DNA of 64,000 nucleotides from contig BSYQ01000009.1 in assembly GCA_030272585.1 (NCBI GenBank), positions 1,736,001 to 1,800,000 on the forward strand. The letters run 5' to 3'. A program made the translations under genes and the position numbers. Within the stretch, counting starts at the first letter, position 1. Each line of letters opens with the position of its first letter. A model generated the notes under the pieces. The model worked only from the letters and a program-made list of their open reading frames with translations. It did no database searches and was not told the DNA's origin. The stretch is from Bryopsis sp. KO-2023 (taxonomy: Eukaryota; Chlorophyta; Ulvophyceae; Bryopsidales; Bryopsidaceae). Below are positions 5,461 to 33,776 of the stretch, piece after piece.

Positions 5461-8400
5461 TTACAAATGATCCAGCTTTATTCTGTGTGCCACCATTCCA
5501 CTAACAATCTCTCCAAACCTACTGATCAGCCCATCCATGGCACTGCACCCTGCAGCAATGTTACCGAAGACCCTAGAGAGCTGAATTCCGTTTATGGCCT
5601 GGTGGTGTTGGCCTGCACCAGCAGCTGCCATATGAGCCAACATTCCATGCCCAGCACCGTTCCCAAACCCAACCGTATGGACTTGCAGTCCTTGATGCCC
5701 ACACACTCTGTACAGTTTCTGCATGGTCTGAACAGCCGTCCCACTGCCATCACAACCGTCTGACATGAACACCAACAATGGTGTGAGATGTGGGTGAGAG
5801 CAAAGATATGACTGAGCCAGCTCAAGTGCGGGGGTGAAACTCGTTCCCCCTCCCCTCTGGGCTGCAAGCCTGGGTTGGCTTTCAACTGTCTGTGCTGTGA
5901 ATATCACCCGTGGAGACCCGGCAAATTGAATTACTGTCACGAGATCCTCGCTTCCTTGGTCATTCGTGCGACAGTGAATGAAATAACTGTAAGCATTCAC
6001 CAGATCCACCCAAGGCTGGCCACGCATAGATCCCGATTCATCCAGACAAAATACGAAATGGAATCCTTGGATGCCAACTGGTACCTGTCCAAAACACAAG
6101 TATTGGTCATTGATGTGCAATGGGATCTCGAAAAGAAAAAAGAATCGTCGTATAAGGATGAGGTTTGAGCATCATGTGTGTGTGGCTTACCTTTGAGGCA
6201 TCAAAAAGATCGGTGGTTGTCAACTGCCTGCCGATTTTGTGGTCATCATAAAACCTCCGGAACTGTGCCTCCATCAATGCTGTTGTTTGTTCCTTAATAC
6301 GGCAAAACATCAACTCCAAATTTTTGCTCCACAACTCCTCCATCACCAGCTGAACTGTCAGTCCTGTCGGATCACCTCGGGGGTATCTTTGCAAACAAAA
6401 ACTCACGGTTCATCCAATTGCGGAAAGAAATGTACTTGTGTTGAAAATATCACTTCGCAGAACACGTCAGTCTTTCAGAGGGTGCTGTTTTCTTCTGGTT
6501 ACCTGTCATGTGGGTCAATGTTGCAATCACGGCCATGACCTGGGGCATCTGTGATTAGAATGACGAATTTTACCCTGCCTTCCCAGTCACCCAAGTTTGC
6601 AGCAGTCCTCAGAGCCCCCAGAACGTCTTCCGGACCATCTGCTCCACCTTGTGCAGTCAGTCCCTGCAGAAACCCGCGCAACTCTTCCACATTCCTTGTG
6701 AACTGCAGCACTTGTATGCGGTCAGCATCTCCATGATCTTTGTAAGCCACCATTGCAAAGCGCAGCTCAACTCTGATGCCTGGGTGCTCCTGGTTGATCT
6801 TCGGGATGATACCTCCAGTAATGACCTGGAAGCTCACAACAGAAAAGTTAATATTTTTCTTCATCGAATGAAAGCTGATAACAGAGACCCTTGCAATAGA
6901 GTTCTGACCTTGATCTGAGATTTGGCTGCCTCTATCCATGGTCCCATCGACCCTGTTGAATCGAGAACGAAGCACACGTCCACTGTCATGGCACTTGGTC
7001 TGTTCCCTGTCTTGAGTTTGGCGCTCCTTTCACCCCTCAGCTTCTCAAGCAGATCTGGGAAGGCACTCTTGTGATGTTTCAGAATATGCGCAACGCTCTC
7101 CCAAGGCCTCGTATCACTGGCCACCGGAGCAAACTCCGACCAATCTTCGCAATCATCCACCATATTCAGGCGCAGTCCACTTCCATGTGAGGAACCCTGC
7201 TCTTGGCACATCTTCAGGGCATCCGGAATTGCACAAGGCAGGACGGCAGTCAGCCATTTGTTGTAGCAATGTGGAACGAAAAACTTGTCAAACCCGACTC
7301 CGATGGCCAAAACCTCCACCAACTCTTCTTCAGCTCTCTCTAAAGCCTGTGCCAGTCTGACTCCACTTGTTCCAAACCCATCCGTGATGATGAAAATCTT
7401 CCGCGGGCCCTTGGGATTTGTTGCTTGAAACAGGCTCAATGCACACTCTATAGCATCAGCATCGAGGCTGGCATATTCATGATCGTGTCGGAGATTGCTC
7501 AACAAAGCAGCAATGGATGCTCCATCCCATGGAGTGTCCGGCAGCTTCACGACATATACACCAGCCCCAAATAGGACCACCGTGAAGTTTTCAATATCCA
7601 TGGACAAGAGCCCCTCCACGAACATGACTAATGCTTCCACGGAGCACTGAGCAAGATGACCCCCCATAGACATGGAGATATCCACCACAATTGTCACTGC
7701 ATACTGCCTCTTCCCACCAGACTTCTTGGCAGAGAAGTACTTTTTGTAGTTGAATTTGGTCGTCACAGCTTTGATCAGCCCCTGCAGGTGCAATGAGGTA
7801 CCCCTCTCGCTGGCCTTATTCCTGGTGTACACGTTCACAGGCAGACACTCCTCCAGGGCTTCCACCATGGAATCGATCTGGCCTGCAACCCTGCCGACCG
7901 CCTCACCCCACTTACTCTGAGCCTCTTTCATCACCCCAAGAAACGCCTCATCAGAATCCACCGCAGAATAGAAGTCATGAGTCTTGTCGATGGCCGCCTC
8001 CACCAACGAATCATCTTTTTCTGCTCGTGGAATGTCCCTCGCTTGATCCAGGAAGGGAATCTCCTCATTTCCACCACCAACCTGAAACATGGAAAGCTGT
8101 TGCATGCCCCCAGCCCCCTCCTCTTTCCCCTTGCTGTAACTCAGCTTCCCGACAGAGCCCAAAATCCCGACATCAATTTTTTGGGCTATTGCAGGCGATG
8201 AAATAGGTGGCTGGAATTTTTTGTCACCTCTTCCTTGCAGTGCGGTGGCATCTTTCAGCATTTTATCGAATTGCTTGATGATCAGGCCAGCCAGCAAGAA
8301 AGGCAAATCGTCCACCAACTCAACATCCAAAACCTCGTAGCACGAGGCAACGCTACCCCAAAGTCGTTCAATATCCTGCATGATTGATTCCTGCATCCCA

Positions 8401-9122
8401 TCCTTGAGATTCAATACCACAAGGTCCACCTCCCGCTCCTTCGTGACCTCTGTGTAATCAGCCGGATCTTTTTCTTGGGTGAGTCCATCGACAATCATCA
8501 GCATGACTCTGTGTCTGATTCCTTTTTCATTCTCGTTGATGGGGTGCGGCCAAACCTTCGCCGCAACATTAGCAAACCCAGTGGCTGGGTGTGTTGCTTC
8601 ATCATAAGAAAAGGAATCCAGTATCTGTTGACCCAGGCCGTTCGAAAAAGTCTGGCCGAATGTCTTCAGCATCCTCTGGCTCTTTTTCCCACCGAAACGA
8701 GCTATGGCAAAAGGCCATTCCAGGCGTCTGAATGTCTCGATGGCTAGTACCAGCGCTTCTGCAGCCTGATGGGCCTGTACTCCAGAAAAAAAGAAAAAAA
8801 ACACATATCCTGCTGAGGGCGTTCTGCTTGTAGAAAGCTACCTGCATTAATGCCAATATTGACAAGAAAAATACAGACACTTTCTGCTACCTTTGTGATC
8901 ATTGATCCCGAGTTGTCCACCAGCAGACACCATTCAAAAATGTGGTTCTCGCAAGTCTTCTGGTAGAACTGCTCCTGCTGGCTTCGAAACTCGTTCAACA
9001 CAAGTCTGCAGTACTTCATCAAAGGCTTTGACTCCACCAGCAGCTGGTACGTCCATTTTTCATGTCGATCAGAAAGATCCATCTGGAGCGGGTCTTCGAT
9101 AAGAGTCAGCGCTGTATCTCGC
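5461..9122 (-). other. C-terminal module of four vWA domains
   Basis: Four MIDAS-type motifs follow one another: WCLLVDNSGSM (about 8920), VTIVVDISMSM (about 7690), VCFVLDSTGSM (about 6970) and FVFCLDESGSM (about 6040). All satisfy D-x-S-x-S or the common D-x-T-G-S variant that coordinates a metal. The third domain, with YKDHGDADRIQV, TAQGGADGPEDV and ITDAPGHG, and the following RYPRGDPTGL segment resemble the vWA region of VwkA-type alpha-kinases, but no kinase domain follows. The fourth keeps LLVFMSDGCDG, the canonical second metal-site strand. The protein ends about 45 residues after the last fold. Confidence 0.85.
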
Positions 9123-12100: not shown

Positions 12101-15100
12101 GGCCCCCTCTTTCGTCTGTGCTGCTTCAATAATCTGCATAACTGCCTCATTCACTGCATCGATGGCATGCTCACGAAAGCGGGACATCATTGGATACCTT
12201 TCCTCCGACGAACGTAGCAAACCCTTTGCCTTTGTGGTATCAAATCCCAACTTTTCTATGGCCTCCAACAATGTCCTCCCTTTTGATTTCTCCAGAGCTT
12301 CGCAGAAAGCTTTGATCGTGCCTTTCAAGGACTCATTGTCTGTGGATTGTGCTTGCAAAATTTGAAGCAGTCCAACGAGCATTCTGCTGCAATCCCCAGA
12401 GGACAGAGCCTGCACAATTTTTTGGCTTCCTGGATTCAACAAAGTGAACTCAAGGGATTCCATTGGAACCCTTTCATTATCAGCTCCTGAGGCAACGCTC
12501 AACAAGGCCGACACAACATCACCCTGTGGCTCCAATTCCCCAAATCCCAGCAGCAACTGAGAAACCCTGCAGGCGCCATCGTCCAGACGGCTGATACAAT
12601 CTTTCAAGACATCGAGGGAAGAGGTGTCCACAATATCCAAGGTATCCTGCATCATCCCCGCAATTTCTATCAAAGAGCAGTGGTCCTTGTCCGTATTGTG
12701 CAGCTCAGACCAGAGGTTGTCAGCAGCATCCTGGAACTTCTTAGCGATGGTGCTATTTGGCATGCATTCAACAATGCAAGTGCAAGCCGCCATCCAGTTG
12801 CTGTCGCTCTCCGAAGCGATTGCGCAGGCACAATACACCGACTGAGAAGGCTCTCTCAGGACCTCGGTCGGAATACAAATAGAATGCGGCGGGGCCGCAA
12901 TCTTCTTCTCGAGGAATGATTGCAATTTTCTCCGTTCATCTCCTTGCTTCAATTTGCAGTTCTCTCTCTTTGTCATGTAGTTCATCATAGACTCTGCAAC
13001 GGCGCCCGGGTCCCCGGGAATAGAACTCTCCAATCCTTTCAAGAGCTTCAACTGAGCAAGATTGCTGGCCCCATGACAGAAGTCATATGGCAAAAGTGGA
13101 AAGAGCAAGAGATGGGGCAGCGAGTCTTCGCTGAATTTCACAAGCTCATGAACGATGTCCAAGCTCAGAGATCCAAACTGTTGCCAATTGGGTAGGCCTT
13201 CCCTCCTTGAGTTTCGTATTGCGAGGAACAAATATTGGGAGGGCTTTCCAACATACCCCAATATGCAAATCTTGCGATGGTCCCCTTCACAATCAAAGTC
13301 GGCTCGGAAGTCATTGAGCGGAGAAAGCGTGACATGCTCTTCGAACCAGCCCGGAGATTCAGGAGCTTTGAATTTGATTCGAATACGGACATCACCCTTT
13401 GGGACTGCAAACTCCCCGTCATTTCTGGGAGCTCCACGCACGGACTCCACATGGACATCCTGCCCAGTGGTAGTCCTACCCAAGCTAGACATCCGCAGAG
13501 TTGATTCACCTATGTTTGAAATGCCAGTCTCCACCTTGATCATTTCGCCAGCTCCAAAGACTTGCCTGCAAACGATTGTTCTGGATCCTTTGATCTCCAT
13601 GTAGGGCGCTTTCATTTTGAAGTCCAGTTCGAATGGCAAAGGCACCCCTTCTTCTGTAAAGAGCTCAAGCTTTGATTTGGTTGCTGGCCTTATGCACATG
13701 GGATCAACCCACAGTCGCATTTCGACACCAGTGCTCCCTCCAGAATCAATGGTCACCACATGCTTCTCAAACACCATATCTTGGCTTTTGGGAGTGAGCA
13801 CTTTGGCTGCAACCACCCCATCATTTGAAATCATCAAAGTTTTCACGAGTTGGATTTGATTGTCGCGCCGTGGTAGTTTCTCTTTCGGGATCTGAATGGT
13901 GATCGTTGATGGCCGCACAGCAAGTTTTGCAGCTCCCCAGCTTCCCTGTGATAGACGTCCACAATTTGAAAATAACCTAAATATTAATATACCAAAGGCA
14001 AAAAAGCAAAGACGTGAGTGTGGAAAATATAAACAAAGAGAGAGCCGCCACCCCACATACCTTGAGCAAGAACTTCTGTTTTTCACATCCAAGCACCTCC
14101 AAATCAAAAGGATATTCCTGGGAGCCGCGTTTCTCCTCAAGGGAAATATACACTTTTGTTGCCCTGTCCGGAAAAATATCTCCTGACTTGCCTCCAATGA
14201 AATTCAAACCAGGGGCACTGGAATCAAACTTGAACTTCACTGGAACCTTCCCAGAGTTCTCAAGTTTCAGCCACGTTTCCAGTTTCTGACCAGATTTCGC
14301 TCCTGGCAGCTTTATACTTGAAAACTGCCTAACTGGTTGTCCATTCTGATCCAGGAGTCTGAAGGATGGTTTCAGGACGCTCGCCCTTGCACTGATGGTC
14401 TTCAAGTTCAAGCTGGAGTTCACTCCCACAATAACATCGCAAGAAGCATCGCCAACGAACGCACCAGGGTCCAATTTCAGCTCAAAAACCTTTTCCTCAA
14501 AACTGCCAAGCATAAATCGGGTTGGCTGAATGTCCCAATTGCAAGAAGGTGCTTCCTGGACCTGCGATTTGATCAGAAGAGTTGCACCCATCCTGTTCCG
14601 AATCGTGAAAGCTCTCGTTTGTTTTCCTGAATCTGCTGCAATATGTCCAAAATCAATCTTCTCACAGTCGAAATCGACGCACAGCCTCTCCACTGCTGCT
14701 TTCACAACCATCATCCCATTCGGACATGCATGGCCATAATCTATCGCCCACTTTCCCTTCAGCTTCCCCATCTGCCGCAAATCCAACGAGCAGCTGATGT
14801 CCATCGTGACATTTGGCAAGAGCCGAGCCTGTTGGGGAAAAATCATGAATCCAGGGGTGGTTTCCTCGCATGTGCTCTTGAATTTGAAGTCGATATCCTC
14901 CGATGTTTTGTTTACCAGCCTGACGGTCCTCACCATTTGCCTGGACTGGCTACGATCCCCCTCTTGGATGTGCAGAACAGTGCCAAAATCAACCACCAGC
15001 TTTGAAGGTGCAGACGATATAGCCCCCGAGTCTTCGACCAGCAGAACCTGCCCAAGTTCAGTGACGTGACATCCTGACAAGCACTCAGGGCCGATATTTC

Positions 15101-18100
15101 CAATGTTTGGAACCTTTTCCCGAATTTTCTCAATCTTCACCAGAGTCCGGACCATATTTTCGCGGGAAGTTGCAGTGTCAAAGGTCCATTTCATATTGTG
15201 GATGGCGTCCTGGTTCAGCGATCCCATTCCCGAAATTGACTTGGCCAAGTCTTGTATGTTGGTTTTCATTTTCTGGAATGCTTTTACGTCTGCAGGGGAG
15301 GACATCTCAAAGGCTTTGCACATCAGCCCAAGGAGAACAAGGCGGAATGCCTCAGTCAACACACGAGCTCCCAGATCTCCTACAAGCTTTCCAGACTCCT
15401 GACACTGACCAAAGGTTCTTTTCATGTCTTCAGTCCAGATCATTGACATAGGCATATCCTCGTGGGGGTTCCCAAGGCTAACGAGTAGGTGGGACGAACG
15501 ACCTGCACCTACACACCCTTCGCATCTTTTTATCAGTGCGGCAAGGTGTTCTGTGAGGTTAATGAGATCTTCCAGCGAATGAGGCCCCTTTTCGCTGGAC
15601 AGCATCTGAGCTGCCACATCGAAGAGTTTCTCAGAGTCATCTACTAGCCTGGTAACACATTCCATGCATTCCTTAACTGTCTGTGTGCATTCCATGTTCA
15701 AGAACACTTTCTTGTCATTAGCTTCTTCCATAGAAATTCTGGTTCGCTCCCTTGATGCTACTGTCTCCTCTGACTCTGGCCTTCGAGGTTCGCTGACAAG
15801 CTTCAATTTTCTGAACTCCTGCCAGGAGCTGTTGAAATTCCTGAACTTGATGTCAAATAATGTCTTCAGCTGGTAAATCAGGTCTTCATCGCCATCAATG
15901 TCCATTTTTTCGGCCGGCGAGCTGCCCTGATCTTGGTCTCTACTGATGGCTCCTTGATTTGAGTTCTGGGATTTATCGTCATGTTGGGCTTTTTTGCTGG
16001 ATCCTGTTGGCTTTTCCGTTCCCAGGTTGGTTGGACAGATGTATCCTACATGGATCCCATAGTGCAGATACCCATGAGGCCTACGGTGTCCGAATGCAAC
16101 TTTGTTCTCCTTGCTCCACTCCTCTACGTGTTTACTGATGGAAGGACCCCAAGGCTCGTCGTCTTCTTTCAGGAATTCAACTTTTATCTGCACGTCTCGT
16201 GGGGAATTCATTTGGAAAAGATTATCAATCTTCACCCCATTCAATCCTTGTTTGGGTACTGGCACCGTGCAACCCACAGCAACCTCATCGCCTTTCAAAC
16301 AAGTCACTTTGATTTTGGACACTTTGCTCAAGGTCCAACTCATGCCCGGTAAAGAAGGTTGATCCACCCCCCGAATTCGGAATGTGAAGGAACCTGGCCT
16401 TTTCTCAAGACCAAACCTTTGCAATGAAAAATTTGGCTCCTGTCTGATCAACCAGTCCTGATCATGAAGCAATTGATGTGCTTGATCATTGCAGAAGGCA
16501 GGGTCTCCTTCCCCTCCAATCTGGCAACAAAGTTCCAGAATTTCCTCCAGCTGTGCCCACAGATTTGATCTCATTTCCTCCTGCTTCTCATAGTCCTTGT
16601 TCCAAGACAAAAACCGCATCATCCTCTCACGAACTCCATGCAGTATCTTCGACACGATTCCTTTGCGCTTTTCCTGCCTCGCTGCAATCAATTGGTCACC
16701 CTGCTCGTTCCACGTATCACCCACTAGCGAGGCTCGGCGATGCAACTCATGAAGTTCTCCCAAATGGCGATCGATTGAAGCACCGTGCACTTTCTGCTTC
16801 CCAAACTCGAGAATCATCAGAACCCCATTGTTGAGGCGCTGTATGATCTCTGGAATGACGACACCCACAGCAGTTTCATGGAACAGAATCTCCATCTTGC
16901 TACTCAAAACCTCCAGGGCTGCATCTGATGTATTTTGAAACCAGTCGACAATGGTGTGGGCATCAAGCACGTCGCTTGCACCCTTCACCACTCCTGCAAT
17001 CATCTCTCCGACGCTGGGCACCCCATATTTTAGCAGGGCTGCAATTTCATGGCAAATTTGAATTGTGATATCGTCCACCCCATGGCATCGAAATACTGCT
17101 CTGAATTTCTGTATGTCAATTGCACTTGCAATTGTGAGCTCATACATAATCTGTGGCAATTGCGACTCATCCACGTTATCATTGCCTTGGAGCAGGACAG
17201 GAGATGTGCACTCAATCTTTCCCAGAGAACCAGAGAATTCTTGCGAAATGTGCAACAGGTGGCCAGCCACGAGTTCCCCCTTCAGAGCACGAAATCTCAT
17301 CATCACTTGATTGAGGAAATCTGCCAGGTTGGGGCGATGCAACGATAGCTCTTTGCACATGCGTTGGAGATCATGTTCCAGAATGGACACATCTTGCAAA
17401 TCATCTGCACAAGCCTTCGCTTTTCCCTGGAACTTCCTCCCAAGCACACGAGTCCCTGCCTCAAAAACCCCACATAGCGATTCGATCTCTGGCTGCCAAA
17501 CTCCAGCACCAATGAGATTTTCCCCCAGCACCACAAGAGCTTTGTGGGTATGCTCAGCATAGACAGCAGCAGGTAAGAACCCATCTCCGGTAACTTTGGT
17601 GGCATCGTTAATAGCTGAAATGACTTGCAGAAGGCTGCTTGGGTAGTCCAACAGAGCATGATGAGCTTGACACATCAAACTTTCTACCACACTACACAGA
17701 CCGTCTTGCATCGACTCCACCAGGTTCACCACCGCTTCGTTGCCCATGTCAGACTCCAACTCGAGGCCACGACCTGTGATCTCTGCTTTCAATTCGTTCA
17801 CATAGCTCCCCATTGGCTGCCTGAGATCGAGGTATCTACAATGCACCCATGTGAATTTGAGGACGAACATACGAGTGAACTCCAGCGAAGCACGGCACCC
17901 AGGATATCGATAAATACGGGTGTCGAGGGAGGCCATTCCCTTTTTCTCCACTTGCAGCAATTGGTCAGTTGCCTCGATGAATTCCTCCCTGTTTTCCTCT
18001 TCCTTGGTGATGTCCATGAGCATTGTGCACCAAGAAAGCAGCTCATTGGACAGCTTCCTTGTCTGTGAGGCGAGATCGTGAAAGCTTTCCAATACAACTC

Positions 18101-21100: not shown

Positions 21101-24100
21101 TCTTTTCCATGAACTCGAAATCGTTCTTGCAGGGCATCGCGTCTATCCAATCACGCACCCAGCATCTATGGCTCTCCGAAATCCCTGCACAGAAATGATT
21201 GATCGAAGTGGCGATCTTTCCTGACTGCAGCCTTGTTTTTTCAACCACCACCAGCGAGAGTGGGTAGCAGCCCTCATCCACATCAGAGACCAGAAATAAT
21301 ACTTCGGAGCTGCCTCTCTTAGCCAATTTCACTGATTCACACTTCTGAGTCGCAGAAATTATTCGTGCTTTAGGCCGATCGAAGTCCAGATCTTTCACGA
21401 AATACATCCCAATCCAGAGCGCAGCCAGCTGACTGCGATGCACTGCAGACCCAGTGCTGTTAACCAGCTCACAAAACCGGCCGGTCAAAGTGACATCCCA
21501 GTCCAACCCGCGAGATCCTCCCTCCCGCTTCCACACTGCACGTGCCTCATCAAGGAACTCTTGCTGTCCATGAATTGCTGCAAAGAGCTCACAATGCAAC
21601 ACAAATCTGGCACTACGACTGTCCAATGCTTCCTGAAGACTCGCTTGGAGTTGATTCGCTCTTTCCTCATGCCTGCTGATTTCTTCCTTCAATTCATCTT
21701 GAAGCCGCTCAACTTCCTTCTTTTTGGTTTTAGACTCTGCCCTGGTTTCTGACGAGGATGGACCTTTGTCAGGTTTTCGGTCACAGTCAACCGCATTCAC
21801 AAGGGTGGAAATCCTGGATTGTAATTCCTTTGCTTTTTTGCTACCACTGCACAAGCCGACAAATCCTTGAACAATGGGTCCGAGATGCTTCTTAGCTTCC
21901 ACCACACAGTACGCCACCTCCATCTTCAGCATTTTTGAAACAAAGGCAGGATCGGCATCAGGCTCACTTGCCAGAGAGAATGGCACCGAGAGGCCGTTTT
22001 CCCACCCACGAGCAATGTGCTGGAGAACAATTTGATAGCTCTTCACCACAATTGGGTCTGTCTGGATGACCACCATTAACTTGTTCAGAATCCTAGGCAG
22101 CATCAGCTTCGAGTCGATGATCGGCTTTGCAAGCTCACTGTTGAGAGCATAGAGTGCCGCCTCCTCCTCAAAGTCAATCAGCGAATCCTCAAATGCTCTC
22201 TGGGTTTTGACAAATACGTCCAGCTCCAGGCAGGCGAAATGCTGCAGACTGGTTTTTGCATGAAGCAATCGATTGCATGCAGAGATGCCATCCTTCAGCA
22301 AGACCGACACCGCCTTGGTCCTGAGATTCGTGAAGGCATTGCTCCGCAAAATTGTCAGGAACGATTCAGCAACCCACACGATGCGCTTCAGGAAGCCAGA
22401 GCGATCTTTATAGTCCAGGAAAGAAGTCGCCCTGACAAAATCTACGATTCCAGCCTGGATTCGGGAGCTAGTGTAGTCCATTCCCTTTTGCAGCTCCCTT
22501 ATTTTAGAATCATCAATAGGATTCAAGGCACCGTGTTGTTCCATCACTTCCCTGACCTTGCCCATGGCTTTTGCAGAGCCTATTTCAGAAAAGGCTAGCT
22601 GCAGGCTGGCCTTTTCCAAGGGGTAGAGTCTCAGCATCGCCCTGCGCATCTCTGATTCAGCCATACCATCGCACAGAGATGCATTCTTCATAAAATACAA
22701 GGATTTTGTTGCAACTTGGATCAGCATGGCTTCCAGAGAGCACATGTGGACGGATATTTCATGGATCGAACGCTCCAGGGAACTCATATGACCGAGCTCA
22801 GAAGAAATTCTGTGAAACTCTGATGTGGGGGTGCCTTCCAGCCCCTCGCAAACGTACGCCAGCAATTCAAGAAGTTTTGCAGCCCCACTCTGCATGCCTG
22901 ATGTGTATGTTCGCCAAAGAGCCCAAGCAGTGCTCGAAAGCACAGGCTTCCCCTTCCTCATCCAATGCAAAGCCACCTGTGCAGCCTGAAGGAAAGACTC
23001 CACGTTTATCACAAATATCCTGTACTGATAAAGGGACACACATGGTGAGAAATTGCTTTCAGCGAAAGTAAACATGTGATGAAAACTGAATGGCCTGATC
23101 ATTCCTTGCCTGCTCCAAACTCCTGAAATTGACGCTCAGACCATTAGACGGTGTGATTTCCTTCCTCTCCACCATGTTCTTCACACCAGCATGGAATTGA
23201 AGCAGCATGGATGCAGCTATTCCTCCACCAGGATAGTCACAGAACTTTGCTGACACGATTGGTAAGAGGTCATGCGTCTTACAATTGTTTGGGGTCAGGT
23301 CAACATCCATCCCTGGAAGCTGAACAGAGACCATCCTGTTCAGGATGGCTGCCGAAAGCTTGTTGGTGTTGGGTCTCTTGGGGTCTGCAGTGGCAAAAAT
23401 CCGTGTGTCGCTGTCGATTCCACCTCCACCTCTCGATAAGCACTCGCCTGCATCAAACATTGGCAGAGTTATTTTCCCCTGTCCACCACCTTTCTGGGGG
23501 GCCTTTGGAGACTTGTCTACTGGTACATGTTCAGGAGCTGTTCACTTGGATGTATATGGTAGAGAATTGACATGATTAAAGTAATGTACGGCCTATCCTA
23601 CAATAATCCTAGCAATCCTGTCAACTTAGTCTGCGCACCATCTGCATGTTCGTACAGAACCAACACGGGGTCCTCTTCCAGCAATGAATTGAGACGCTCA
23701 ACTACTTCAGGGGGGGCACTGTTAATGTTGTCCAGAAGAATATAGTGCCCAAGCTTCAGAGCTTTGACCAGCTCCGATTCAACGAAAACAAATCCGATGC
23801 TGTCCTCCCCAAGTGCCACACATTCCTCCAGGTGGTCCAAGGTGTAGTTCAGACTCTTCAGCATAATGGCTGCGAGCATTCGCACTTCAGGGTTCATTCC
23901 CTCATCCTGGCATGTCGTGTCTAGGATCACCTTTAGGTGCCCCAGTGCATCGATACCTCGCTTGGCAAGTTCCTGTATATTAATGACCAGGACAATCCCC
24001 TCTCAAAAAGAACTCTCTTCTCAGATCATCCAAACATCGTTGGGGAGCCACATTTATTCTCGAGGGAACTGGGTTGAGAAAAGACGCAGGGCACTACGTC

Positions 24101-27100
24101 TGCTAGAAAGGCAACCTAAGCCATAATTTGAGGCATCATTACTCTGAATGCATTGATCATACCTTCTGCGATGCACCACTCTCAGCCTCAATTGTCAAGC
24201 TATATGCTTTTCTTAAAGCTTCAATAGAGCTGCTTCTGGCCTGTTCATTTTGGACAGGGACAATGTACAGCAGCAGGTGCTTTGATATGTCATCGATAAG
24301 GGTCGTTGCCTTCTGATTCAATTGCACCTGGAACGTTTTCTCTGTCAGGGGCATCCACTGACCTGCCATATCACACCACATTCCCTACATAAAAAACTCC
24401 CTATGCTGACGATTCATTTCCCCAGAACTCGAACATCAATCTTTTCAAATTCAAGATTTAGAGACTTGAACCGCACCAATCAAATCAGCTGTCTCAAAAT
24501 TCTGGTGAAGAGAAACTGTGAGCAATTGGCGGCCGCCCAGGCGAGCAAGCTCCCTCACAAGCGCAGTCTTTTTGGAGCAAGTATCGCCCTGATGGAAATC
24601 ACGAGTGAATAAAAACCTACAGGTCCCAACCAATGCTTCAAGATCTGGCATAAAAAGTAGGAGAGCAAATATCACGGTAGAGCAAACCCACCTGTAACAG
24701 GACAGTCCTCTTGCTTTGACATCCCATTGCAAGAATCTCCAATTCCTTGATGGTATTGAAAGAATGAACCAATCTCCCTTCATTCTGTTGACGCGACGCG
24801 TCCTTCTTGATGGCCAAATAAACAGAACCGATCCTCACACATCCAGGCACAGTACTGTCAACAGTAGCAGCACTTCCCTCCTCCATCACCGGCCTCGGTA
24901 AATGCTTGTCAATGATATCTTGCGCAGCTTGGCAGTCAGAACAATCGCTGAATCGGTGCTTGTACACCAGCTCCACAGCCCTCCTAAGGACGATCTGGCT
25001 GACATCCATCAAGTGCTCATTCCCCAGTCCATCCTCCTCCGATTCCAGAGGAGCCAACTGGTAATGTGCCATCTGATTCTTGATATTTCCTTCCACTATG
25101 TCCCTCACTTTTGTAAGGTCCCTCAAGTTGAATTCGTAGGGACCCCCTGATTTCCCCATCTCTTTTCTGGATACACGGCCCCGGATTTCAACGTGCAGAT
25201 TGAATATATCGTTCAATGACTGCTCTTTCAGGTACCCCCGTTGCACAATCTCGCAAAAAAGACTCTTCATTATGGCCCGAAGCTCCAGGTCACTATGGCC
25301 CTCCAAGTGCACCACCATGAACAAGCTCAAAAACGACCTGGACAGCCTCGACCGACCTCCTCCAAGACTGGCAGGATTCATCGTGGCAAAAATGTACAGC
25401 CCATCCAGTGGGATGACCTGATCTGTCCCTGGTACGTGAAAATGCCCCGACCTTCTTTCCAAGAGGGGAATCAGCACCTCCAAGACTTCTGGGGGTGCGA
25501 GATTGATCTCATCTAGCAGCACCCACTTTCGGGACTTCAGGGCTTCCACCAGTTTTCCATCGTGCCATTCAAACACCCTCCTGTTTTTCGAGAATCTGGG
25601 CATGATAGACCCCAACAGGTGCTGAACGCTGGTGTCTTTGGACAGATTGATCCTCACACATTCCGCTCCAAGCAAGCTCGCAACTTGACCAACCACAGCA
25701 GTTTTCCCTGGAAAAAAAGAGAAATAGACAGCTCGGGTCCCTCAAAACACGTGGAAAATTTTACGGGACTAGATGGTGCCTCATAAAGCAACTTAGTTCT
25801 GGAATAAAACATCAAACCGTAGGTAATTTATAGCACTACACCCTGGGCAAGGTTTGAAAGAGGACTAGAAACATACCAATTCCAGGTGGGCCCTCCAGAA
25901 GCGGGGCACTCCCCGCAGATATTGCAGCAAAGATTCTCGCAATATTCATCATGAAAGTGGAAGTTGCAGTGCACTTCAGGCGCTCGTGCAATTTTTCATC
26001 TGTCAAGTATGGTTCAGGTTCCATCAGCTTCCCTCCGATCCCAGCACATGTCAACTCAATGGCTCGAACGAACCCATCCTCCGAAAGCTTCACTCGAAAT
26101 GGAGGCAGGTCATTTTTCTCCAGCTTTTCTTCGATGTCCATGATCGACAGCACATTGCAATCCAATTCGAAGTGCTTCCACCACCTTTCCACGAGCTCCT
26201 GTTCTGCACCAGATGTCAAGTCATCGAGGTAAAAGAACTTTGCTCCCAGGAGGATCCGATGATCGATGGGCATGTCGGCATCTTGATTGCAAATGAAATC
26301 CACCCAGCGAAATATCTGGCGGACATCACTGCGTGCATTAAGCCTGGGGTCTTCCAGCACCAATTTTCTCAAATGCATGATTCGATTCGCAATTCTCTCC
26401 GCCTGTGCCGCGTTGCTGTGATCCAAATCCAACCGCTTCTTCAGCTCAAGATCAAGGACCTGTTGGAGCTCCTCCACAGTGTATTCTGGAAAAGAAATCG
26501 CAGTAAAGCGACTCTTGGTGGCTGCACTGAGATTGACTCGTCGCTTGGAACCGTCCATGTGCACGGTTGCCAGAATCTGCAAGGATTCCTTGGGTACACT
26601 GACTTCCGATGATTTCCAGCTGCCAGAACTTGAGGCTGTCACATCTTCTGGGAGGGAAAATACGGGGTCTGGCTCCAAAAGACTATTCAGCCGCTCCGTA
26701 ACAGATTGAGGACAGGCATCATAATCCTCTATGACCAGGATCTGCCCCGTGCTGACAGCACGTGCAACAGGACCATCATTGAACACAAAAAATGGATCTC
26801 CGTTTGATGAAGGCGCACGTTTGATGGCTGCCCAAACATTCTTGAATCGTTCCAGAAGCCTCTGCACCCCAAACTCCGCATTGTCAGGGATTACCCTATC
26901 AAACAGCTGGATCACCTCAGACATCACTGCCACCACCTCATCTGGAATAGTTAAGGCTGGTTGGTAGGGAAGCGATTGTGGCATTGCTGCAAGTGGATCA
27001 TCGAATTGCAGCCCCCCCTCACTGTAAACATCATCCCTGGACCCCGCATCCAGTTCAAGTTCCTAATATAGAACAGCAGGCATGTCAAAACCCGCATCTT

Positions 27101-30100
27101 CGAAACTGTTCCCATCTCCTCCTGACGACCTTCCACACTCTTTGTCCCCTTGACCAATAGGCATATCAAAACCTCCATCCTCAAAAGTGTCCTCATCATG
27201 TCCCGGCGTTCCTCCAGAATCTTCTGCACTCATCTTGCAAAAATCAAAATCATCCAAATCTGCCGCATCCTCGTCTTCTATTTTGTTTCCAGACCCTTCT
27301 GGTGCTGGCTCACCAAACCCATAATCATCAAAAACGGTGCCATTTACACTGCTATCCGAAAACCCAGTCAAACCCCATCCATTGCTGCCACCTGCTTGTG
27401 AGCTATGATCGATGTCATCCCCATCGCCGAGCAGTCCATGCAACAGACTCGTCTTGCTTTTGTGAGTGGATGGGATATCGGAACAGCTGTCAAACTCTAT
27501 TCCACCCAGGAAATCCCTGGTCGGCTCTTCCTCAGTGCATTCAGATGAGGAGACTCCCTTCCCAACCTGGTCAGCAAAGTCTGACAAAACATTTGGAAGA
27601 CTGCTGGTGAGCAGCACTGACATGTGCTCCTCCAAGCGACTCTTTCCAGAGCCATCCTCTTGATGCAACAGCGCATAGCGGGCATATACCTCGTTTCCCA
27701 ATGCAGGCAACAATTTCAGAAGCTCGGCAAAGGACATGGGATTCACATGGCCGAGCAAATCGTGGGCCTCTGTTTCTCCAGTGATGTGCAGGGTAACCGT
27801 GTGATCCGTACGGCCACAAATAGCTGCCCATGTTCTGATAAGCTCTGTTTTGAAGGATGTTGGACCGGACAGGAGAACCGGCTCCCTAGCAGAGATCGCA
27901 AATGCCAGCTGGACAAGCTTCCGAAGGAACGCACTCGGAGGCACAGATCCTCCCCGCCAATGCTTTGAGAGCGCCAAGTTGATGTCAGGCAGAGTCAAAT
28001 GCAAAGGGCCCTCTCTGAAACATACTTTGGATCCCACTGCATCAACTGAAACGGGCCACTCCTTGTCGTTGGGAAGGACAGCATTTTTCCACCCAGGCAC
28101 AGACTCTGCTGCCTCCACCACTTTCTTCCACTCGTTCGAGCCATGATGCTGGGGGTGAAGCAGGGAGAGGGCTACATGTGACCAGAAAGGGGGTTTTTCA
28201 GCCTTGGAGGCAAACATGGTAAATCGCCGCACAATCTTTATGATCTCTCGCATGGTGAATCCCACTTTACGCTCCTTCAATGCAAAGTAGAAATCTTCCA
28301 GTTGTGTTGCCACCTGGGAAACAGAAATTAATTAGCTCACGCATACACCACAGATGCAACAAAATCAATCAGGAGGGGGTGGTTTGAAAACAGCAGATGA
28401 CTAATCACCTCTGGGGTCATGGCATCTCCTTCGGGGAGTCCATTGAACCGCTTCTCGATAACCTCCCTGAGCTCACCCACAGGAAAGTCCCCAATCTGGA
28501 CCTCAAGAAACCGATTTCTGATATTGATGGGCAGCAAATTCCTGCCGGCCGTCCTGTGATCATTTTGAGTCGCAAAAAACCTGAAATCTGGATGCACCTG
28601 CACACACATCGAGGCTCCAGGGATATCGATGCTTGTGCAGCCTTCCAAAACCGGAGCCAAAGCTGATATGACGGGCAACGGTGCCAGATTCAATTCATCT
28701 GCCAGGAACCAGCTTCCCTCCTCCATCGCTTTCACCAAAATGCCCTTGCAGAAGGTAAACTTCCCATTCACTGGGAGCCATGTCCCAAAATAGTCTTGAA
28801 CCGTGGTGGTGTCTGAGTTGTTCAGAATCTCAACCTTTGCACCCTGAACAGGGAGTCCTCTTCGTAGCCCTGTCACCAGTGCTGTTTTACCCACAGCGGG
28901 GGGTCCCTCCAACAGCACAGGCCTATTCGCAGCCACACAAGCAAGAATCGCAGCGGCGTGCTCCTTCCTACTTTCCGTCAGTACCAGGTCAGAAGGGGGA
29001 AGCAGTTCCTCCAGAAACCTCAGTTCTTCCTCTGCACAGTCAGGCATGTCCAATGACTCATCCACGACCTTCTCCACCTTCTCCCTCAGCCTCTGATCTT
29101 TCAGCTGGACTCCGAATGTGAGGTCAAATGCAGCTTTGAGCGCCTTATCTAGAGATCCTTGGCCATGCATGCGCTTTTGCAGCAAGTATGCACTGTCGAT
29201 CATCTGTATGTAACTCCTCATTGTGAGTGACGCCAACTGGTTGCGTTCTGGAAGCAGTTTCTGGTGAATGTTCCAGCAGAGCGCAGCTACACGTTCCTGA
29301 GCAGCTTCGCCAGGGCAATCCATGAGAATGCCTGCCATCCCCTTGATCTCTTCCCTGAAGAGCTCATCGCTTTTGTCCATTGGGTCATCCACATGAATTA
29401 TCGAAAACCGGTTAGCAAGTGCCGGCGACAGCTCGTTGGAGAGCATGTCGCATCCGGATGAATTCTTCCCTGGGGGCGTGAAAGTGGCCAGGAATGAAAA
29501 TCCTTCTGCTGGACCCTCCCTGAGGCTGCCATCCCCCATCAGACAGCATTTGAACGGACCACCATCCCCCTTCTCTGAAAGACATAACATGGGGGGGACT
29601 TCCAGCGTGGGGTTGAGTCGCTCCAGCACGGCTGCTTCTGCCTGGCCCAGGTTATCAACCAACAAGAAACAGCCATTCGTATAGGCTCGTGTCAAGGGTC
29701 CATTCACCCACTGAATCTCAGCTTGTTTCGAATCACTTGAGCAGGGCAATCGCTGCCCAAGCAACGCCGATGGCTCGCTCTCTGGAGTCAGGACGATTTG
29801 CTCAATGTCCCTCCCAACAATGAATGCCAGTGCTTTCACGAGGGCACTTTTTCCGCATCCAGACTTTCCTTCCACCAAGACTGGATTACCGCTTTTCACA
29901 GCAAGCAAAATGAGGTTCAAAGCTTTCAGAAACCTTTCCCCCAGCATCAGGGGAGCTGCACTCAGAGCGTCGTCATTGACAGCAGGCTCTTCAGCTAAGA
30001 CAAACGCTTGCTCAAAAATCTGGATAATTCTTTTCCGAGCTTCCTCGTGCCTGAATTTGGATGCATACAGACTTGCTCCCATTGCTCCCAGCTGGTCGGC

Positions 30101-33100
30101 CAGTGCTGGGAGGAGCAGAGACTGGGATGCTCCTGCCTTGATCCACTCCCACAGCCACATGTCAGAAAAATCCATCTGCAGCCCATGCTTCAATATGAAA
30201 TCAGGGCTCATCACTAGGAGCTCTATTTCCCGATGAACGGCCTCACACTCTTTCAAAATATGGGCACCGTCCGGGTAAAAAACATGCCCCATTCTTTCTC
30301 CCCAAGCAGCCTCGTTGAGGATCCACCATCCATCTGAGCTCTTACGATCTCTGGAAAACATATCCAGGATTCTGCTGCTCTGCCATGATAAGGTCGGCTC
30401 ATAGAACCCAGCTTCGATCAACTCCTTTCGAACTACCTCCCCACCTTTGTGTCTGAATCTGGAGCCGTACACTAACCAAGCCAAGTCCATCGCATTTTGA
30501 CCTTCATGATTGCAGAGGAGATCGCACCACATCAGGAGCTCCCGGATGGTAATTGTTGCATAAGCTCCCTTTTCTGCAAACGATTGTTCCCTCATGCCTT
30601 CCACAATCTTCACATGAAACTCAACCATTTGCTTCGCCAAGGACCCGATTTCCTCCCTCTGGGGCTTCTCCCTATCCACCAGATACCCTTGGGACAGCCT
30701 GTGAATCACGATATCAACCCATTCCGACTCTGGGAGCTGCTTGAAAACCATCAACGAAAATCTAGAGAGGAAAGATTCACTCAATTTTTCCCTCATTGCC
30801 CTGAACAAACCAGCTGAAGGGTTTTCTGTACCAAACAGCCTGAAGTCCTCATGCCTTTCCAAAACCCTGACCGGCTCAAGAGCTGAGCTGTTGTCTCGAA
30901 TGATAAGCCTGCCAGTGTCCAAAGCATGTTCTATGCATTGCAATGTTTTCTCCTCTGCAAGGTTCAACTCATCCAACAGAACCCACAATCCTTTTTGGAA
31001 AGCATCAGCGAATGGCTGAAGCTCGAAGCAAATCTCTTGCTTCCCCAACCCATTCACTTTCAGCGACGTCCTTGCAAGGAGGTCATCTGGACCCACTCGT
31101 GAAGACATGTTGATCCGAACAAGGCTCTGATTGCATTGCCTCGCTGCCTCCATGACAGTCGCAGTCTTACCCACCCCTGTCGAGATATTTCACACCAAGT
31201 TCAGCAAGGTTATGATACTCCAAAATAGATCAGCTTCTGTTTGCAGCTCACAGAGTTCAAAAATTCTTGGTACCTGTTGCGCCCTCCAGCAGAATGGGAA
31301 TGCCATTGGAGGCAGCTTCCAACAGTCGATCCAAGTTTTTCTGAGTTGTCTTAGTCATCACCATGTCACTTTTCAAATTTTCTGGACCTCTTGTGGAACC
31401 ACCATCCTCCTCTACAAGATCATGCAAGACTTCAGTTTGATGCCCAGGTTCCTGTGCTCTCCTGAGGATGCGAGAAATCCGCTTGAGATCCAGGCTGGAA
31501 ACATTATTGGAAGCTTCTGGCACTGAGTGGCCTGTCAGTGATGTAAAAAAGCCCATGTCTTGGTCCCTTTGACTAGCTGCACCCTTGGCTCCACTCGCAT
31601 GAACACCCCCGCTTTTGGACTTGTATGAAACCTGCAGCAAATCCCTGTCTTCCTGGCTCAACTCCATCAAATCTCCCACAAGCCTCACTGCTGCATTCTT
31701 ATCGTCAGGATTCTTTGCCCCATCCAACAGGGACAAGATCAGGGGGAATTTTCGCTTCAGGGCTGAGGTGAGCGGTGATGATGATTCACTTTCAGAATGA
31801 ACCTGTGCCAGAGTGGGAAACCATGATTTCAAACCAGTTGATTCGGCATCCGCCGCCCTTTTTAAGATATTCTCAATGAAAAACCCCAGCCCAGATGACG
31901 GTCCCTCCTCCCGACTGTTCAGCGCTACATTGTCATGGTTGGCAAGCAGATGCACGCAAGCTTTCAATGCCAAAGTATCAGGATCATTCCTCAAGATGCA
32001 TTCACTCCACCCGGCAGCCAGTCTGGCCCCAACATCTTTCTGAACACGAACATCATCACAGATGGAAGCAGTGACTACAATGGAGTACACTGAGATGGGA
32101 TCTTCTCCCAAGTCGGCGTATGCAATCAAGCTCTCAAGGATGGTGGTGCTTCCCCCGGCTGTGATGGCTTTCGAGCAGCAAGCTCTCCCTTTCTCAGTTA
32201 CCAGAAGAGTATGAAACAGCTCAACTAGCTTGTCACTGTCCTGCACTTCTGCATGCTGGAAAACAGCTATGAGCATCTCAACGTCTGCAACATTGCAGCT
32301 TTCCACCCATGTGGCCACACTCTTTGCAGACATGCAGGATTCCAACAGCTCCAGCATATCAATTGATGACTCATGGCACATGCACAATCTCAAAACAGAT
32401 CTGACGATGGGCTGGCTGGAATGCAATGAGTAATGCATGGCCATGATTCGCATGCAATGAATCCATTCAATGATGGATCCATCTTCCATCTCGATGCTCT
32501 TAGCACCCAGAACCTCTTCAAGTTCGAAGAGCCCCTCGATTTTTTCAAGATCAACCCTCGAGCACAACGCGGCATTGTCGCTCCCAGAGAACAAGCATGT
32601 CATCAAATACAGCCTCTCCAGGATCCACTCCCCCGATCTGCTTTTTCGCTCAACAGACGATCGGCCCAGCAGCTCAAGCACACACAATATGAGCTCTACA
32701 GCATCATCAACACTCATTCCCGTCGCAGATTTGGCGAAAAACCGATGGAAGGTAGCCCACCACCATCCCTGCGTCTCAGATCGCAAACACGACACCAAAA
32801 GAGCGACAAAAAGATTCTTCACACCAGGAGATGCATCGTCCAGACAGCTTTCTAGCTGCAGCAAGATCGCTTCCAGAGCACTCTCCGATCTACGATCGAG
32901 CACCCGATCGAAGGCTTGGATGACGCGCTCGACAACGAACTTGCGAATGGGCTCCTCTTCGTGAACCGTGCTAATGATCATGGACGCGATCTTGCGAAAG
33001 ATATCCGCACATGCCGACGGCTCGCTGTTCGATATCAGATCCAGCACAAGACCTTCGCTCCCTTCCCTGGGCCCCACTTTCCCGTCGTGCGACGATTCCG

Positions 33101-33776
33101 CCTTGCCATCGCTCCACAAAACCTTGAATCTCCTCTCCGCAGAAAATTTTGTCCTCCCGACGGCGTTCAACTGTGCAGGATCCACCTGGACGATGCGCAA
33201 CGGGTTCAAAAACAACTTGATCAACCCCGTCGCTTTCGTGAGGTCGCCCTCCCAAACCCTCCTCTCTTCTCCGCCGACATCGTACACCCACTTCAGCAAC
33301 CGGCAGATCGCATCAGTTTCAACTGCGTCGCATCCCTGGACGTCAAACAGATCTCCAAGATACTCGATCGCCCCATCGCACTGGCTGGAGACTTTGGGCC
33401 TCACCGCCTCTTTTTTCTTCATGGACTTAACCACCTCCATGACTTTCAGCGCGGAGGGGTGGAACTCGATCTGGTCCACTAAGATCCTTCGCACCGTCGT
33501 CTCTTTCTCTGGTTGTCCTTGCAGTCCAGCGATGTACCAATCCAACAGTCTCGCCATTACGCACGACTTGGGGGTGCACGATTTCAACACTCGCACGCCA
33601 CAGAATTGCACAATGCATCGATAAAAAATGGACACCCCTTCCTCAGAAAAGGTGCTTGGGCAGGCCATCGCCCCCTCAACGTGACGTCTCACCACCGCCA
33701 CATCCACGGCATCATCAACCAGAGACTTTTGCAAGTCGCTGATGATGTGCACGAAAGTCTGGCCGTCGGCCGCCAT
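5461..33776 (-). CDS. Giant midasin-type AAA / vWA protein (~8,740 aa)
   Basis: Twenty exons, with ends (high-low) 33776-31274, 31176-28349, 28313-25877, 25707-24692, 24588-24466, 24384-24163, 23972-23639, 23447-23110, 22985-14061, 13945-11901, 11753-11607, 11513-11344, 11205-11018, 10933-10713, 10609-9221, 9122-8842, 8779-6909, 6825-6503, 6386-6191, 6126-5461. All phases agree and the sum, 26,223 nt, is divisible by three. Domain order: N-terminal region (1-830); six AAA modules of the midasin/dynein class with Walker A near residues 834, 1273, 1595, 1925, 2589 and 2928; a long linker; Ig-like domains near 5930-6560; four vWA domains near 7690, 8085, 8325 and 8540. Midasin is a ring ATPase that remodels pre-60S ribosomes through one C-terminal MIDAS domain. 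Four vWA domains, Ig-like domains and the length set this protein apart. One in-frame TAG (27063-27065) probably lies in an unannotated 93-nt intron. The function is unknown, and a mechanochemical remodeller is inference. Confidence 0.88.
12900..15010 (-). other. Ig-like (ASH/MSP-like) domain series in the giant protein
   Basis: The end of the large exon and the start of the following one encode beta-rich repeats with patterns such as LVVDFGTVL, TVRLVNKTSEDIDFKF, KIDFGHIAAD, AFTIRNRMGATLLI, WLKLENSGKVPVKFKF and GISNIGESTLRM. These resemble ASH/HYDIN/MSP-type immunoglobulin-like domains, which are common in ciliary, centrosomal and trafficking proteins. At least four units can be distinguished by eye. 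The family assignment rests on pattern only and needs a profile search. Confidence 0.5.
14061..22985 (-). other. Single 8.9-kb exon: linker of the giant protein
   Basis: This exon of 8,925 nt (2,975 codons) is uninterrupted. It starts at a CTTTCCTTCAG acceptor after a GC donor and ends at a GTATGTG donor. The encoded protein is mostly helical and charged, without strong similarity I can recall. It includes a predicted coiled-coil stretch (around 18560-18850, with alternating Glu/Lys/Arg heptads) and another Lys/Glu-rich segment near 21650-21750. In midasin the equivalent position is a long helical linker, so the placement agrees with that architecture, although here the linker is much longer. 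Ig-like domains begin near 15010. Confidence 0.7.
23110..31330 (-). other. Six-AAA (midasin/dynein-type) motor region
   Basis: Walker A motifs: AAA1 GATGVGKT (split by the intron at 31177-31273), AAA2 GKSGCGKS, AAA3 GPPAVGKT, AAA4 GPTSFKT (one residue short and lacking the Gly before Lys), AAA5 GPPGIGKT (split by the intron at 25708-25876), AAA6 GDTCSKKT. Walker B motifs: WVLLDELNLA (AAA1), FLLVDNLGQA (AAA2), WFLADELNLA (AAA3), ILVIEDYDACP (AAA4), WVLLDEINLAPPEVLE (AAA5), YILLDNINSAPPEVVE (AAA6). AAA5 and AAA6 carry midasin-like context (RINLSKDT, ETADLIGAVQ, IFATADP). AAA4 and AAA6 look catalytically weak, while AAA1, AAA3 and AAA5 keep the best active sites. Confidence 0.85.
27037..27400 (-). 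other. Acidic insertion within AAA4, with an in-frame TAG
   Basis: Between the Walker A (about 27880) and Walker B (about 26750) segments of AAA4 lies an Asp/Glu/Gly-rich insertion with short internal repeats (FEDGGFDMP, FEDAGFDMP). The otherwise continuous frame meets TAG at 27065-27063. A phase-preserving GT-AG intron of 93 nt (27037-27129, donor AAG/GTCGTC, acceptor GGGTCCAG) would remove it and fits the size of the other introns in this gene. Its donor is weak. Confidence 0.5.

Follow-up and report, generated by a model that had tools for sequence, protein, structure and literature searches.

A giant midasin-like AAA+ protein with four vWA domains in Bryopsis: a candidate second midasin-class family of eukaryotes

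Midasin (Rea1, MDN1) is a motor of ribosome assembly. In Rea1, AAA2 to AAA5 are competent for hydrolysis and AAA1 and AAA6 lack a Walker B motif (PMC6286127), and the loop of the midasin MIDAS domain that docks on the ring, element II, is described in PMC6624252. In this study, we analyzed a stretch of 64,000 nucleotides, hereafter the window (C9:1736001-1800000), from the 91-Mb, 28-contig assembly of Bryopsis sp. KO-2023, an ulvophyte green alga (Bryopsis is termed giant and coenocytic in PMC12509668). Its minus strand carries a gene predicted to encode a midasin-like protein with six AAA modules, a very long linker, an immunoglobulin-like (Ig-like) block and four vWA domains (vWA1 to vWA4). 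We propose, with a probability of roughly 0.6, that the protein belongs to a second midasin-class family of eukaryotes, in which a single-chain AAA+ ring would move the linker and a docked vWA2 and thereby pull a bound protein from a large assembly.

Separation from canonical midasin

A first-pass annotation of the locus had suggested a distinct giant paralogue or a new family, and had proposed looking for a separate canonical midasin in the same genome. Such a gene was found on C1, from 5.642 down to 5.617 Mb, with colinear matches to canonical midasins that extend from AAA1, by way of parts of the linker and acidic segment, to a MIDAS domain and the C-terminus; the genome's best AAA_lid_7 match and its sole MDN1_4th match also fall at this locus. 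The suggestion is further upheld by the split in a tree of AAA regions and by active sites that differ in 32 non-Bryopsis relatives.

Relatives were collected with the AAA region and the linker region in protein searches limited to about 5,190-16,500 amino acids (aa). The linker region retrieved three proteins, all from Bryopsis; the AAA region retrieved 1,255. Among the best 120 of these, 35 proteins of 5,263-7,987 aa (P0002-P0029 and P0031-P0037) stood at the top, and their Pfam domains included neither AAA_lid_5 (PF17865) nor MDN1_4th (PF21108) among the matches listed; below them came canonical midasins, carrying AAA_lid_5 among the domain matches listed. The sources named in the 35 were Bryopsis, Apatococcus lobatus, the bdelloid rotifers Rotaria and Adineta, a Prymnesium bin and 'Mesvir1', a prefix that we take to stand for Mesostigma viride. 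An unrooted FastTree phylogeny was built from 49 AAA regions and 2,096 columns, with P0008 omitted as P0007 is a near duplicate, and with 12 chosen canonical midasins plus that of Bryopsis itself. A branch of length 1.94 with support 1.0 set canonical midasins apart from all other sequences, and the window protein lay outside their group. Rotifer sequences were placed at several points of the tree, so that old duplications and transfers are both possible.

The ring and linker of the window protein comprise the following parts:

31407..33776, minus strand: N-terminal region, residues 1-790, no Pfam family
30740..31379, minus strand: AAA1; GATGVGKT and LLDELN intact, predicted to be catalytic
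29360..29947, minus strand: AAA2; Walker A intact, Walker B degenerate (LVDN), Arg finger kept
28460..28972, minus strand: AAA3; GPPAVGKT and LADELN intact
26460..27917, minus strand: AAA4; Walker A lost (GPTSF-KTE), IED as Walker B, Arg finger retained; contains an acidic insert
25256..25967, minus strand: AAA5; GPPGIGKT and LLDEIN intact, Arg finger lost (SLF)
23278..24763, minus strand: AAA6, placed by alignment; degenerate Walker A (GDTCSKKT), LLDN as Walker B, Arg finger retained
15114..22976, minus strand: linker of about 2,600 residues, similarity to the midasin linker not recognisable

The window protein thus has what we call the W-type pattern, with the Walker B pair DE at AAA1, AAA3 and AAA5, none at AAA2, AAA4 and AAA6, and the AAA5 Arg finger lost. 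The same pattern was tallied in an alignment of the 32 non-Bryopsis relatives. Specifically, DE was present at AAA1 in all 29 readable sequences (three had gaps) and at AAA3 and AAA5 in 32/32; AAA2 had DN, DA or EN in 32/32, AAA4 had neither DE nor a standard Walker A in 32/32, and AAA6 had DN in 30/32 and DE in none. The Arg finger was retained in AAA2, AAA4 and AAA6 and lost in AAA5 in every one of the 32. By comparison, the 13 canonical sequences have DE at AAA2 to AAA5 and an intact AAA5 finger. We infer that ATP would be hydrolysed at AAA1, AAA3 and AAA5 only, since each of these sites would be completed by the Arg finger that the following module supplies (AAA2, AAA4 and AAA6, respectively). 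The acidic insert of AAA4 (window about 27437-26955) contains repeated FEDxGFDMP-like segments, varies in length between copies and evolves fast, with a ratio of nonsynonymous to synonymous rates (dN/dS) of about 0.5.

Other regions also set the two kinds of protein apart. A profile comparison of linkers (hhalign, 7 versus 11 sequences) gave 2% for similarity to midasin, a result at the level of sequence with which a common fold would still be compatible. No D/E-rich segment of the midasin type was found in the window protein, whose best 200 residues reach 24.5% D/E; the corresponding values were 19-31.5% in five relatives tested versus 38-50% in 11/11 canonical midasins. The Pro-Tyr of the proline-tyrosine nuclear localization signal (PY-NLS) in the MIDAS loop was absent in 18/18 aligned family members and present in 84/86 canonical sequences. 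The Bryopsis canonical midasin (C1:5608001-5618000) has LAY replacing the IPY of this signal.

Judged by its sequence, the window protein is not a canonical midasin. The order of ring, linker and MIDAS domain, which is common to both, and the UniRef label 'Midasin' of the Apatococcus relative would also fit an ordinary midasin duplicate that gained accessory domains and still serves ribosome assembly. We consider such a duplicate very unlikely, because a canonical copy exists, the tree separates the two kinds, the active sites differ, the linker is unrecognisable, the acidic segment is missing, and AAA_lid_5 and MDN1_4th are absent from relatives among the matches listed.

Gene model, paralogues and the in-frame stop codon

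The gene was rebuilt from splice sites, curated by hand and checked against two paralogues, copies B and C, by alignment over 30 kb:

5461..33776, minus strand: whole gene, in 20 exons; 8,677 codons followed by a stop; checked against two paralogues and, for residues 2201-8677, identical to BSKO_10123
33776-31274, 31176-28409, 28313-25877, 25707-24692, 24588-24477, 24362-24163, 23972-23639, minus strand: exons 1-7
23447-23110, 22985-14061, 13945-11901, 11753-11607, 11513-11344, 11205-11018, 10933-10713, minus strand: exons 8-14
10609-9221, 9122-8891, 8774-6909, 6825-6503, 6386-6191, 6084-5461, minus strand: exons 15-20
27063..27065, minus strand: in-frame TAG, codon 2174, in exon 3; GAG in copy B (the 83% paralogue), gap in copy C

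In position, strand, length and number of exons the model matches the gene of about 8,700 residues and 20 exons in the first-pass annotation, and its phases join through 8,678 codons including the stop. The domains listed in that annotation (six AAA modules, a beta-rich Ig block, and four vWA domains bearing DNSGSM, DISMSM, DSTGSM and DESGSM) were borne out. Among the predicted introns, 18/19 are GT-AG and one is GC-AG; the GC donor is needed at exon 8, where both paralogues have GT. Residues 2201-8677 of the model match GenBank BSKO_10123 (P0001, 6,477 aa) at 100% and without gaps, in agreement with every junction downstream of mid-exon 3. Two other models, one from codon usage only (18 exons) and one weighted by conservation (23 exons), were dropped because they lost or over-spliced coding stretches. 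A chimera of neighbouring genes was ruled out, since the order of parts is constant in three copies and the parts lie on one protein in relatives from other organisms. The annotation had also considered that transcripts might end between the AAA and vWA parts, which would indicate several genes. The public predicted models do not break there: BSKO_10123 runs from within AAA4 to vWA4, and BSKO_10106 begins with exon 2, in AAA1, and continues past vWA3. In addition, P0021, an open reading frame (ORF) of 7,465 aa from a EukProt transcriptome that starts inside AAA1, holds AAA, ASH-type and vWA parts in one frame, which argues against separate genes. Nine flanking ORFs of the window yielded no related domain. 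The window also contains an ORF (45717-46478, minus strand) with a GMC oxidoreductase C-terminal domain and another (57646-58641, plus strand) with a partial fasciclin domain.

Copy B (C9:1633189-1605111) is 83.4% identical over 8,495 codons and copy C (C9:1372980-1344235) 62.7% identical over 8,565 codons. When the window exons were projected onto both, no internal stop was met and both began with ATG; introns were GT-AG in 19/19 cases in copy C and 18/19 in copy B, whose only misfit is the last exon, where vWA4 has been lost. The public protein of copy B, BSKO_10106 (P0002, 7,695 aa), gave one continuous alignment from model residues 843 to 8477. Overall dN/dS was 0.30 against copy B and 0.24 against copy C, with 0.13-0.18 in the AAA1-3 and AAA4c-6 segments and 0.04-0.07 in vWA2.

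Two further copies lie convergently on C2: copy D (C2:2096546-2118187, plus strand; its protein is P0003, 6,098 aa) and copy E (C2:2167914-2146300, minus strand). Their similarity covers the AAA ring and the greater part of the linker, with gaps at residues of about 3710-3855 and 6011-7212, and stops around residue 7396; most of the Ig block and every vWA domain are therefore missing from both. The catalytic Walker B Glu is gone at AAA1 and AAA5 in both; that of AAA3 is gone in D and retained in E. Between D and E, dN/dS ranged from 0.42 to 0.65 across the four large segments analysed; a short segment (151 codons) gave 0.30. In the 28 kb separating them, vWA domains had no match; apart from the ends of the two genes, this interval holds just one weak match, of 29% (E about 1e-4), to residues 7503-7600. 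Decayed remnants of the family's C-terminal part are present on C1 at about 0.977 Mb (C1:976001-980000) and 1.370 Mb (C1:1368001-1372000); the first of them contains stop codons and has lost its MIDAS motif. Copies C, B and D/E form an apparent series, in which C is complete, B has no vWA4, and D and E are tailless and catalytically altered. Some Bryopsis copies may be regulators or may be decaying. Beyond the midasin-like loci, two AAA_5 matches were inspected, on C7 and C3, which we take from their translations to be a ClpB/Hsp100-like ORF and a dynein-like one, respectively.

The state of the window copy itself depends on the TAG at codon 2174. BSKO_10123 begins just past it and omits the N-terminal 2,200 residues (AAA1 to AAA3 and part of AAA4). 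Either an intron ending there would remove the TAG or the window copy would be truncated or split; a candidate in-frame intron, 27347-27063, ends exactly at the TAG and has a weak donor. Nonsynonymous and synonymous changes on the lineage of the window copy versus that of copy B were 29:55 versus 41:56 before the TAG and 166:222 versus 214:243 after it. Constraint on the window copy's lineage is thus similar to that on copy B's on both sides, so any inactivation would be recent. A recently inactivated or split gene, with only the paralogues functional, would be compatible with our family-level proposal; the GAG of the near paralogue, the public model starting right after the TAG, the decayed pieces on C1 and the truncated, catalytically altered copies on C2 all point that way. 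We nevertheless regard it as rather unlikely, as the TAG is the sole stop within the 8,677 codons, the lineage is constrained no less than its sister on both sides of it, and the weak-donor intron would splice it out.

The Ig-like block and the vWA tail

The C-terminal part of the protein has these features:

13289..15056, minus strand: about five ASH/HYDIN-type Ig-like units; three modelled (part of exon 9, 15149-14061), the last two assigned by eye
8355..8953, minus strand: vWA1; MIDAS DNSGSM at 8917-8900
7305..7919, minus strand: vWA2 and the preceding loop of ring-docking type; MIDAS DISMSM at 7682-7665; corresponds to the MIDAS domain of midasin
6547..7016, minus strand: vWA3; MIDAS DSTGSM at 6962-6945
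5575..6193, minus strand: vWA4; MIDAS DESGSM at 6042-6025, DESPS in copy C; domain lost in copy B

A structure model predicts that the Ig unit, about 105 residues long, folds into a beta sandwich of PapD-like type and agrees with solved structures of ASH domains; the block found its best structural matches in CEP192 and in proteins of the ciliary central apparatus. Relatives occur in rotifers and Mesostigma, organisms with cilia or flagella. These points would suit a machine of the cilium or centriole that assembles or remodels parts of the central apparatus or basal body in flagellated stages such as gametes. We see this as a minority possibility, since non-ciliary proteins also have ASH folds, the open-access titles and abstracts searched contained no link between midasin-like proteins and cilia, and rotifers are the sole animals among the source-named family matches listed.

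A structure model together with an alignment indicates that vWA2 has a midasin-like MIDAS fold with the element II loop. A census of vWA domains was conducted with profiles built from aligned family C-termini. All four were found in the window copy, copy C, P0013, P0016, P0020, P0021 and P0122-P0127; three in copy B, P0005, P0019, P0128, P0129 and P0130; and vWA1 alone in P0006, P0009, P0011, P0018 and P0035. The profiles detected none in the remaining family proteins scanned. The 12 canonical midasins had one vWA domain each, for which the vWA2 profile was the best match in 11. The first-pass annotation knew of no protein with this architecture, and its uniqueness did not hold: ten non-Bryopsis proteins carry four vWA domains, and in six of these the chain also contains AAA modules (P0013, P0016, P0020 and P0021, together with P0125 and P0126, which start within AAA5 or AAA6). 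The others (P0122-P0124 and P0127) start in the linker or later. Of the 32 non-Bryopsis AAA-bearing relatives, 11 have at least one vWA domain and four have all four. When the four-vWA region of P0013 served as query, 14 proteins were retrieved, namely the family and one canonical midasin (E 1e-4). Two scans of viral contigs for a viral origin, made with short-peptide patterns from the window protein, which are weak probes, gave no relative.

MoxR-class AAA modules joined to several vWA domains, and a weak bpMoxR match (25 bits, cut-off 27), recall the bacterial MoxR-vWA conflict (immune) systems described in PMC7159879. A eukaryotic counterpart of these is highly improbable, because no effector domain was seen in Pfam scans and midasin is the closest relative by sequence and fold.

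A rotifer gene of Rotaria magnacalcarata with 7,479 residues, of unknown function and 'with partial similarity to midasin', was reported as the site of a retrotransposon insertion (PMC7943196). It probably belongs to the same family, as judged by size and species (P0018, 7,975 aa, is also from R. magnacalcarata); the excerpted text does not describe its domains or family. The excerpts of PMC7159879, PMC6431247, PMC6927961, PMC13036017, PMC6286127, PMC6624252 and PMC2837639 mention no probable relative; PMC6431247 reports midasin homology within a planarian retrotransposon polyprotein, and PMC6927961 a single-nucleotide polymorphism in a rotifer gene called Midasin. The architecture is thus already in databases, unnamed or labelled Midasin. 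No earlier description of the family, and no genome paper for Bryopsis KO-2023, was found in titles and abstracts of the open-access literature searched, and the family is apparently undescribed.

Proposed mechanism and comparison with known systems

According to our proposal, the ring would contain three alternating hydrolytic pairs, formed by AAA1, AAA3 and AAA5 with the finger of the next module, and its ATP cycle would drive a stroke of the very long linker. The MIDAS of vWA2 would dock on the ring to engage a ligand, by analogy with midasin, and the bound protein would be pulled out of a large assembly. The ASH units might tether the machine to a scaffold of microtubules or a similar structure, and the three extra vWA domains might provide further docking points or ligands; pulling on several ligands, as the first-pass annotation imagined, is plausible as a hypothesis. 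The substrate would be other than the pre-60S ribosome, for which the canonical midasin is present. On this reading, the protein would be a non-ribosomal remodeller of the ring-linker-MIDAS type, perhaps associated with microtubules or cilia.

Several observations weigh against this proposal. First, the tree is unrooted, and several of its inner branches are weak (down to 0.05-0.32). Second, Walker A is kept at AAA2 in 31/32 relatives, so AAA2 may still bind ATP, and at AAA6 in 12/32. Third, vWA domains were not found in 21/32 non-Bryopsis AAA-bearing relatives, seven of them above 7,500 aa; truncated gene models may account for part of this, and the four-vWA tail is therefore not yet a firm mark of the family. 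Fourth, the ASH fold is not confined to cilia (OCRL). Fifth, loss of the PY-NLS was rejected as proof of a cytoplasmic role and is a weak criterion, because the Bryopsis canonical midasin also lacks the Pro. Finally, the window copy bears its in-frame TAG.

A parallel family with another register of active sites suggests that the ring-linker-MIDAS design was reused for a second job, and offers a natural comparison for the coupling of ATP to force in such rings. The 1-3-5 pattern, with two paralogues of lost catalytic residues in the same genome, makes the sites that drive the stroke directly testable. It also provides a frame for very large algal and rotifer proteins now labelled 'Midasin' or 'hypothetical'.

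Among described systems, midasin shares with the window protein six AAA modules, a long linker and a C-terminal MIDAS with a ring-docking loop (vWA2). The window protein differs in its active sites (1-3-5 versus 2-3-4-5), in lacking the D/E-rich segment, in its unrecognisable linker, in the ASH-type Ig block and in the three extra vWA domains. HYDIN, central-apparatus proteins and CEP192 have ASH/PapD-like Ig arrays, as the window protein does; to our knowledge, they have neither an AAA ring nor vWA domains. The dynein heavy chain and RNF213, as far as we know, also lack vWA domains and use their ATP sites differently. Both are, like the window protein, giant single-chain AAA proteins (PMC7311170 for RNF213). 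NorQ-NorD and other MoxR-vWA machines, in contrast, consist of separate small bacterial subunits (PMC13036017). More tentatively, and with somewhat less than even odds, the family might form a distinct giant AAA+ class beside dynein, midasin and RNF213, characterized by a single-chain ring that hydrolyses ATP at every second site and thereby drives the linker, a docked MIDAS domain and a four-vWA tail, by an ASH scaffold, by targets that are microtubule-based and not ribosomal, and by occurrence in distant eukaryotes.

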